Source: Chloroflexaceae bacterium (GTDB taxonomy: Bacteria; Chloroflexota; Chloroflexia; Chloroflexales; Chloroflexaceae). Taken from it: a stretch of DNA of 37,137 nt. Of the stretch, positions 9,474 through 12,559 are shown piece by piece; position 1 is the stretch's first letter, and the number at the start of each line of letters is the position of its first letter. Under the pieces are notes generated by a model, which did no database searches, had not been told where the DNA came from, and was given only the letters and a program-made list of their open reading frames with translations. Location of the stretch: NCBI GenBank assembly GCA_012031225.1, contig JAAUTZ010000033.1, positions 1 to 37,137 on the forward strand, written 5' to 3'. The translations under genes and the position numbers were made by a program.

Positions 9474-10439
9474 TTACGCATCATCATCCAATTGGGACAG
9501 GGCTTCTTGGGCGGCTTCGCGGCGTTCAGGTGCGTTGCTGCGGAGCAGGCGTTGCAGGGTAGCGTGGGCCCGCTGCCCACCGATCTCGCCCAGTGCCCAA
9601 ATTGCAGCCAGTGCAATTTCGAGGTCGTCTTCATCTACCATTGGCAGGAGCAGGGGCAAGAGGGGCAGGGCAAGGTCGGCCATTTCGCCGGCGGCACGGG
9701 CGGCTTCATAGCGCATGGCTGGCGAGGGGCTACGCAGTTCGAGTTCGATCATCGGCAGGAACTCGGCCGAGACGGTGCGCCCCATAGCGACAAGGGCACT
9801 TTCACGGAGGCTCTGTTCATCGCCGCGATAGGCGGCATCAATCAAATCGCCGACGGCGGGCTGATTGGCAAAGAAGCCGAGTGCTTCGAGCGCACGGCGG
9901 CGCACATCAAGCGGCTGGCGCGGGTCTTGGGTTAGGTCGTGCAGCACCGTGTAGAGTTGCTGGCTGCTGGCTGGGTCAAGCTCGGCGAGGCTAGCGCGGT
10001 AGGCGAAGCGGCTCAAGCTCAGGACGGCGGCTACGCGCACACTGCCTGCTGGATCGGCAACTAGCCGCAGGAGCCAATCGAGCATCAGTGCGCTTTCTTC
10101 TTCCCATAGGCTCTCGATGGCAGTTGCCCGCACATGCTCATCGGTATCGCTGAGGCAACCGAACAGGAACGAGCGGAAGTCCAGTTCGAGGGTATCTTCC
10201 ATCAACGTCTGGATGGCTTGCACGCACTCGTGCCGCCGCGCTGCATCGAGGCTGCGCCACACACTCTGGAGGGCCTGTACCTGCGCCTGATCTAGCCCGG
10301 CGAAGGCGGCTAGCTCACGCTTGGCAAGGCGGCTCTCTGGTTCAGCGAGAGCCGCCAGCTTGTGGCGCAGTTCTTCATCTGACAACACCTGCGTTGGATC
10401 GTAGAGCGGTTCGTAGGCGGGATCATTCATCATCATCAT
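9474..10439 (-). CDS. HEAT-repeat protein
   Basis: This is a separate gene that the raw sequence appears to fuse to its upstream neighbour. The start lies in a run of four ATG codons (10439, 10436, 10433, 10430) preceded by GTGGAAG; from 10439 the product is 321 aa. It is built of alpha-helical HEAT/armadillo-type repeats such as DEHVRATAIESLWEE, GSVRVAAVLSLSRFA, DVRRRALEALGFFA, SPAMRYEAARAAGEMA and LEIALAAIWALGEIG, then an acidic end. HEAT repeats form curved scaffolds that bind proteins or nucleic acids; no enzyme motif is seen. It overlaps the corrected end of the 626-aa gene by 8 to 17 bases and is the last gene of that operon, suggesting a shared complex. Confidence 0.8.
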   Translation of the reverse strand: MMMMNDPAYEPLYDPTQVLSDEELRHKLAALAEPESRLAKRELAAFAGLDQAQVQALQSVWRSLDAARRHECVQAIQTLMEDTLELDFRSFLFGCLSDTDEHVRATAIESLWEEESALMLDWLLRLVADPAGSVRVAAVLSLSRFAYRASLAELDPASSQQLYTVLHDLTQDPRQPLDVRRRALEALGFFANQPAVGDLIDAAYRGDEQSLRESALVAMGRTVSAEFLPMIELELRSPSPAMRYEAARAAGEMADLALPLLPLLLPMVDEDDLEIALAAIWALGEIGGQRAHATLQRLLRSNAPERREAAQEALSQLDDDA

Positions 10440-12302
10440 ACTTCCACGCACTGTAGGCACTGTCTTCTTCATCCGCATCTGCATCCGCATCGCTCGTCTC
10501 TTCGCGCTCTGGGGTATAGATGAAGAGATTGGGCCACTATCAGCTACTACAATTGCTGGATCGCGTTCAATCAGGTCAAGCACGTAGGGGCGCGATGTGG
10601 GGCGTAGCACGGTAAAGGCAAGCACCAATGTGTCAAGTTCGATCTGGTAGCGTGGTTCTGCCCGCGTGCCGAGATTCTCACCGAGCACCTCAAACACATG
10701 GCGCAGCACCACATCTCCTTTGCGCCGATCATTCATCGGGAGGGCTTTCAGGTTGCGGAACCGGCCATACACATTCTGCGCTAGCAGGCGCGTCTCATCC
10801 ACCATACAGAAGTAGCTGATCTCGGTGAATCCAAACTTGTTCTTCTTCTCATCCAACGTGAGCAGCCGTTCGGAGGCTTCACCTGCTTCATCGTACCGGA
10901 TCGTAAAGACATTGGGCACATCGGTGCGGGCAATTGTGAACAGTGCCCCCGCCACCAGATATTCTTGGAAGAACTCCTCTAGCCCTTGCAGCCAGCCGCC
11001 CCGATTGCCCGTCGGGTAGCGCACTTCAACGACGTAGCTGGTGAAGTGTTGGGGCGACTCGAAGGTCAGCACGGCACTGCGCTGGTCATTCAACACGGGG
11101 CGTGGCAGCAGCGCGGCAAGAGCCGCATCGAAGGGCAACACGCCATACGTCCACTCAAAGAAGGTGAGGAAGCGGCTCACCTCGCCCTGCTCCTGAATCG
11201 CTTGAAAGCTCTGGTCTTCGAGGCTATCATCGAGGCCATCCGGCAGGTAGCCCGTGAGTTGGGCCATCTCAGCCGCCTTGACGCGCTTGGTACCAATCGC
11301 GGGCAAGCCTTTTGCAGCCCACAGATTGGCACCCGGCACGCCCACATACTCGAAGTCTTTCTCGCGGCTCAGGCGGTAGTTCAGGGCAAAGCGGAAGCCC
11401 TCATAATCAGCTTGGCGTTGGCTGTGATAAAGGTCGTCAATGATCGTGGCATCGAGCAGGGGCCGACCGGCTTCGATAATATCATCACGGATGCGGCGCA
11501 AGTCGTTCTTGCCGAGCGTGGGCAGATTGTCGCCCGCATAGATGAGCGTGCCGAACCGCACGAGCCGATTGAGCGGATCGTTGTCAATTTGGTAGAGCAG
11601 GGCTGCCGACAGTGCGTGGCGATGGGTTTGCAGCAAGTCGGGGGTGGGCTGGCTCAGATCTATCGCCGTACCATCCGGCAGCGTAAAGACCGCCTGCACC
11701 GTGCTGACTGGCTCGGCGGGGGGGGGCGGCACGACTTCGGCTTCGGCATCGCTGAGGGCAACCTCGGCCAGTGTCGCGGGGGCGGGGATGTCTGTTGGTG
11801 GCGCAACACCCGATCCATCTTCGTCCGGCTCGCGTTCGGTCAGTTCCCGGGCGGTACTATGGGTGGGTGCTTGCTGCCAATAATCGGAGATGAACACCGG
11901 CTCAACGGTGGTCAGTACAGGGCGCGACGTAGAAATGACCACACTAATGTCATCCACAGGCAATGGCTTTTCGGGGTGGTACAGGCGTTGCTTGTAGGTG
12001 TGGGTATTGACATCTTGGCGCGGGTGGTACATGCCCAAGCGCGAGGTGGTGTAGATGACATCGCTCTCACCCGTCTCACGGATGAAGATCTGCTGGTTCT
12101 CTTGGATGGCCGCATCAATTGCTGCGGCCATGGCCGCGTGCTCTTGCTGGTGCAGGTGCGCCAAGAAATCGGCAAGGTTGCCGAGCGTCTGGCGGATGGG
12201 GGCATCATCGGCGAAGAATTGCCCTTGCGCCACCATTAGGCGAAAGACTTCCGCTGCCAACGATTGCTGTTCGGCTGTGCCCACAAAGGTGATCTCACTC
12301 AT
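10423..12302 (-). CDS. Unknown 626-aa protein with acidic tail (frameshifted in this sequence)
   Basis: I do not recognise this family. As deposited, the frame reads through into the HEAT gene (942 codons), but the stretch near 10530-10440 translates to an implausible MRMQMRMKK/GSMMMM segment. Adding one C (G on the plus strand, run 10531-10533) restores GPNLFIYTPEREE, a DADADADEED acidic tail and a TGA at 10425-10423, giving 626 aa. The N-terminal ~140 residues are helical with KQRLYHPEKPLPVDD. A Pro/acidic linker follows (about 145-205). The middle has FALNYRLSREKDFEYVGVPG, LWAAKGLPAIG, which faintly recalls a winged-helix (HARE-HTH-like) fold; that is inference only. Its ATG overlaps the stop of a 49-aa ORF by 4 bases. 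Confidence 0.65.
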
Positions 12303-12448
12303 GCTTGCGCCTCCATCACCAACTCGCGCAATAATTGCAAATACTGCTCAATGACGGCTTCTAGCTCTTGAGGTTGCCCGCTGGCGTGGAGCCACTGCAT
12401 CAATTGATCGAGCGCAGTTTCGCCGTAAATGATCCCTTTTGCATCCAT
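12299..12448 (-). CDS. 49-aa small protein, first gene of the HEAT operon
   Basis: A short frame starts at ATG 12448 and ends with TGA 12301-12299. It begins MDAKGIIYGETALDQLMQWL and ends LRELVMEAQA, so it is mostly amphipathic helix. GGGAG lies about 10 bases before the ATG. Its stop overlaps the next start as ATGA, which is the best evidence that it is real: the same coupling style joins all three genes. No family is recognised. It could be a small subunit or chaperone of the 626-aa protein. Confidence 0.6.
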   Translation of the reverse strand: MDAKGIIYGETALDQLMQWLHASGQPQELEAVIEQYLQLLRELVMEAQA

Positions 12449-12475: not shown

Positions 12476-12495
12476 CAGCAGGTCAAAGCCTGCTG
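12476..12495 (-). terminator. Hairpin with T-rich tail after the ROK gene
   Basis: CAGCAGG and CCTGCTG (7-bp perfect stem, 6-base loop) are followed on the minus strand by TGTTGTGTGTTT. It lies between the ROK gene end (12560) and the 49-aa ORF start, so it may end ROK transcription. The tail is T-rich but not a pure T run. Confidence 0.4.
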
Positions 12496-12559
12496 CTCAA
12501 TTTTAGATACGCCTCATTCAAATGCGTATTGTACCATGCCTATGGCGCATCTGCAACGC

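Follow-up and report, generated by a model that had tools for sequence, protein, structure and literature searches.

The window analysed here, a stretch of 37,137 nucleotides from a Chloroflexaceae bacterium, carries on its minus strand genes for a 49-residue protein, a large protein and a HEAT-repeat protein, preceded by a promoter-like box and a leader element (Table 1). As assembled, it holds two frames at this place, one of 49 aa (12299-12448) and a single one of 942 aa (9474-12302), the latter running from its start at 12302 into the HEAT-repeat region without an intervening stop, which amounts to a fusion of the large and HEAT proteins. The acidic tail of the large protein, PNLFIYTPEREETSDADADADEEDSAYSAWKYDDDE, is read in a different frame, open from 10536 down to a stop at 10423-10425. 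Hence, the 626-aa acidic-tailed protein described in the earlier note requires a frame change near 10535, since the window's own frame is uninterrupted up to HEAT, although the tail itself is found in Chloroflexales homologues. A relative of the same genus (locus L033, CALCJV010000079), whose large protein is 88% identical, carries an additional base near 10535, and there the large and HEAT genes occupy different frames; judged from this comparison, the 942-aa fusion would thus stem either from faulty assembly or from a change that is very recent.

Table 1. Features of the operon and its leader, with the predicted domains of the large protein.
Feature	Position	Strand	Remark
Small gene, 49 aa	12299..12448	minus	helical/half winged-helix-like; like N-terminus of Anaerolineae homologues
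Large gene, conserved part up to frame change	10537..12302	minus	~588 codons
Large-protein acidic tail and stop	10423..10536	minus	other frame, 1-base deletion near 10535
HEAT-repeat gene, ~320 aa	9474..10439	minus	Pfam HEAT_2 E 1.5e-22; conserved downstream neighbour
N-terminal winged helix, residues 8-94	12021..12281	minus	pLDDT >90 over most
Linker, residues 96-200	11703..12017	minus	predicted disordered, acidic, proline-rich
Second winged helix, residues 262-331	11310..11519	minus	resembles RNA polymerase delta / TFIIE beta
Predicted B3-type beta barrel, residues 371-474	10881..11192	minus	best match ARF1
C-terminal helical, winged-helix-like domain, residues 509-580	10563..10778	minus	model secondary structure only
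TACAAT, putative -10 box of operon promoter	12528..12533	minus	TGCTATAAT-like box
Leader hairpin CAGCAGG-CTTTGA-CCTGCTG, then T/G-rich stretch	12476..12495	minus	candidate operator or RNA leader

The three-gene operon of the earlier note is real as a triplet, although two frames and not three stand in the window as assembled. Both the conservation across about 150 genomes of the class and the constant gene order establish the genes as real, well beyond chance. The overlaps that had been read from the sequence are borne out as well: the 49-aa frame shares 4 bases with the frame that starts at 12302, and the candidate HEAT starts (10430-10439) would overlap the stop of the acidic tail by 8 to 17 bases. 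The HEAT-repeat nature of the third protein is confirmed by Pfam.

The large protein was found in 148 of the 158 genomes of the class Chloroflexia and in all 93 of those with a completeness of 90% or more and low contamination. A sample of the whole phylum gave matches in 101 of 400 genomes; these include divergent homologues of about full length from many non-Chloroflexia families, which we take to be Anaerolineae. Comparison of the Chloroflexia and Anaerolineae profiles aligns 365 columns (probability 99.8, E 2e-27), indicating homology between the groups. In a tree of the large protein, monophyly holds for seven of the nine class families represented by several members; within the order to which the window belongs, two families intermix with low support. 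Inheritance of the gene is largely vertical. No relative of it was found in a plasmid collection or among viral contigs. Altogether, the locus is an old, near-universal chromosomal core locus of the class and not an accessory system.

Homologues of the operon's genes do co-occur, contrary to the outcome that would have spoken against the earlier reading. The small-protein profile finds its match immediately before the large gene in nearly all class loci read, and in most Anaerolineae homologues it is best placed on their own N-terminal segment; matches to single Anaerolineae proteins are weak (best E 2e-6), with a consistent position. As far as these placements tell, Anaerolineae carry the counterpart of the small gene as a fused part of the large protein. 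The 49-aa protein would thus be a detached piece of the same machine, and it probably binds the large protein. Between the part resembling the small protein and the core, the Anaerolineae homologues carry an extra beta-rich segment (residues 66-130 in L115) with the pattern GDxLVFPAL..GxV..RPGxNP, which by eye looks SH3-like.

Complete copies of the HEAT gene downstream were recognised with E-values of about 1e-62 to 1e-127. The gene is not downstream in Herpetosiphon, in the family f5, in the single loci L070 and L083 and at contig ends, and it is likewise missing downstream in the Anaerolineae loci. Its lack in Herpetosiphon, f5 and Anaerolineae marks HEAT as a dispensable partner. Conservation within the HEAT protein brings out no motif that looks catalytic. 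In most Chloroflexia, the HEAT solenoid would be translationally coupled to the large gene and serve as a further protein-binding partner, and a role as scaffold, as had been suggested, is supported as a possibility. As to the operon as a whole, the earlier view that its products form a shared complex may well be right.

Several other genes accompany the locus. Frequent further neighbours are a ROK kinase gene upstream and PIG-L, FemAB and Mur-ligase genes downstream. In the place of HEAT, Anaerolineae carry a different conserved gene of about 145 aa with FHIDFxWW.. and LCxEHQ motifs and without a Pfam match (L100:5027-5482, minus strand; equivalents in L096, L099, L101-L106, L108, L110 and L115). 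In L113 and L114, two loci from genomes of other families, a bifunctional-nuclease (BFN) gene comes after the small and large genes; a DnaB-like helicase frame is next in line in L113.

Neither Pfam, NCBIfam nor PADLOC has a model that matches the large protein, and a sequence search found no PDB chain; the earlier reading of an unrecognised system holds, with no match to any named housekeeping family. Structure prediction was run on the large-protein family, giving an AlphaFold model of the window's protein (m4e200983cbd5, pLDDT 82) and a second model from a separate alignment of Anaerolineae sequences alone (pLDDT 88). The models show winged helices on both sides of a barrel, in agreement with the winged-helix-like region noticed earlier, yet the chief feature is the barrel itself, a predicted B3-type pseudobarrel. 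The N-terminal winged helix resembles many winged helices with Z of about 7-7.7. The linker that follows has pLDDT mostly below 50 and varies in length among relatives.

Compared with solved structures, the barrel of residues 371-474 matches ARF1 best (Z 11.8, 2.4 Å over 102 residues), and every match above Z 8 is a plant B3 domain or a B3-type domain of a restriction enzyme. B3 domains again come first for the Anaerolineae model, with FUS3 at Z 11.6. The Foldseek E-values are modest (0.007 and 0.034). By sequence, Pfam B3 (PF02362) gave no match over the cut-off in 21 genomes and none at the large gene, and an hhalign comparison of the large-protein profile with one built from eight plant B3 sequences gave a non-significant probability of 2.3. 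"B3" is thus a statement on the predicted fold, and the protein is not filed in Pfam B3. In the Chloroflexia large proteins, R434 is conserved in at least 90% and E383 is invariant; a hand alignment on a shared glycine places them on R186 and H136 of ARF1, respectively, both base-contacting residues. In Anaerolineae the C-arm differs and the ARF1-aligned positions are not conserved, and the B3 domain of the window's protein is slightly acidic overall.

Plants and bacterial restriction enzymes are the described sources of B3 domains (PMC6599366, PMC4081073). With the plant factors (ARF1, ARF5, FUS3, VAL1, LEC2, NGA1 and RAV1), the large protein shares the predicted barrel fold and, in the models, the general place of the two DNA-facing arms; it differs from them in being bacterial, flanked by winged helices and encoded in an operon with small and HEAT genes, with no significant sequence similarity. 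B3-type restriction-enzyme domains match the barrel with Z 10.3 (LlaJI.R1), 8.2 (BfiI), 7.5 (UbaLAI) and 6.9 (NgoAVII), whereas the large protein has no nuclease domain and no methyltransferase neighbour and is universal in the class instead of scattered. A literature search returned no paper linking B3 domain, Chloroflexi and DNA-binding.

The second winged helix points to an alternative, namely that the large protein is a general transcription factor on RNA polymerase, this domain contacting the polymerase and the B3-like barrel holding DNA with little specificity. In the Anaerolineae model, the domain matches RNA polymerase delta with Z 6.6-7.5 and the TFIIE beta core with Z 6.8, a weak Pfam TFIIE_beta match (E 0.007) was seen in one family member, and universal presence suits a general factor. 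However, winged helices commonly match one another at Z of about 7, and Pfam HARE-HTH gives no match to the large-protein family. Compared with RNA polymerase delta (RpoE, HARE-HTH) and TFIIE beta, to which this winged helix is similar in fold, the large protein is also much bigger and multi-domain. We consider a polymerase factor rather unlikely.

Upstream of the small gene, the Chloroflexales have a TGCTATAAT-like box, then a hairpin and then a T/G-rich stretch, the box lying at the same place in nearly all leaders read. The sequence AGCAGGGAGG..CTCTCTG occurs in 8 of the 12 genomes searched, once in each and always just upstream of the operon; the window's version of the hairpin has one other copy in its own genome. 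Folding of the window's leader alone is no better than that of shuffled sequences, and RNAalifold on 24 leaders yielded 5 pairs only, 3 of them with changes on both sides, because the stems vary in length. Of 155 leader pairs 24 are G-U, a count biased toward pairing by the delimitation of the arms by hand; within that limit, the G-U pairs and the two-sided changes fit an RNA hairpin. Rfam has no match in the window, and weak microRNA-like Rfam hits in relatives were taken as chance. The leader element may thus act on the DNA level, as an operator, or as an RNA leader; both would be compatible with autoregulation.

A second alternative is that the barrel no longer binds DNA and instead binds RNA or protein, for example the RNA of the leader hairpin. 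The share of G-U pairs is more in keeping with RNA than with a DNA palindrome, and the slightly acidic barrel and the unconserved C-arm of Anaerolineae point the same way. Against this stands the conservation in Chloroflexia of the positions aligned with base contacts of ARF1, and the hand-chosen hairpin arms favour pairing by themselves. A barrel turned to RNA or protein seems to us quite improbable.

Winged helices together with HEAT repeats could also recall the non-SMC subunits of an SMC complex, whose roles the operon would take as a substitute or accessory subunit. The N-terminal domain matches a JetABC chain with Z 7.7, and neither ScpA nor ScpB was found in the window's own genome. Yet in the near-complete class genomes ScpA (87 of 93) and the SMC hinge (80 of 93) are present besides the operon, both genomes of the window's genus keep the operon without detectable ScpA and SMC hinge, and no SMC gene adjoins the operon in the loci read. 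With the operon kept both alongside ScpA and SMC and where these are undetected, an SMC-accessory role is very unlikely. As a separate matter, no ScpA or SMC hinge was detected in the window's genome (G000, 97% complete) and the same-genus G022, and G000 also has no detected ScpB; most of the class having SMC and ScpA, these searches suggest that the genus may have lost the SMC complex. Finally, a restriction-modification or defence system employing a B3 domain, brought to mind by the occurrence of known bacterial B3 domains in restriction enzymes (PMC4081073, PMC4267653), is barely credible given domain content and distribution: the large, small and HEAT proteins and the conserved neighbours give no nuclease or methyltransferase match, PADLOC has nothing for the large or small protein and generic HEAT matches only for the third, and the gene is absent from plasmids and viral contigs, universal and mostly vertically inherited.

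We thus propose that the large protein is a DNA-binding protein of B3/winged-helix type, specific to Chloroflexota, that it works with a small partner and in most Chloroflexia also with the HEAT protein, and that it has a core chromosomal role and is probably autoregulated. We judge this proposal to have an even chance of being right. As a member of an unannotated Chloroflexota family of chromosomal proteins with predicted DNA binding, it would recognise DNA, probably at specific sites, through the B3-type barrel aided by the adjacent winged helices. The complex with its partners would most likely serve the chromosome in a core role, as regulator or organiser, and would hold down its own production through the leader that separates the promoter from the first gene, so that the operon is probably autoregulated. 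In favour of this proposal speak the presence in 93 of 93 near-complete class genomes, the mostly monophyletic families, the B3 domains heading the matches of two models, the flanking winged helices, the placement of R434 and E383 on ARF1 base contacts, the adjacency or fusion of the small gene, the 365-column homology and the once-per-genome leader. The non-significant B3 profiles, the modest Foldseek values, the slightly acidic barrel, the differing C-arm of Anaerolineae and the weak fusion scores weigh against it, as does the general point that likeness in fold is no proof of function.

In summary, our analysis reveals a chromosomal operon conserved throughout the class whose large product has a predicted B3-type barrel between winged helices. 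More tentatively, and with somewhat less than an even chance, it may represent a universal, non-restriction B3-domain regulator in Chloroflexota, that is, a B3/winged-helix DNA reader in a core role that is structurally nearest to plant transcription factors and under operon-specific leader control. If true, this would be a core, non-restriction use of the B3 fold in bacteria, and the evolution of plant B3 domains would gain a new comparison point. It would also provide a testable function for an unannotated core gene in a phylum with little molecular biology.
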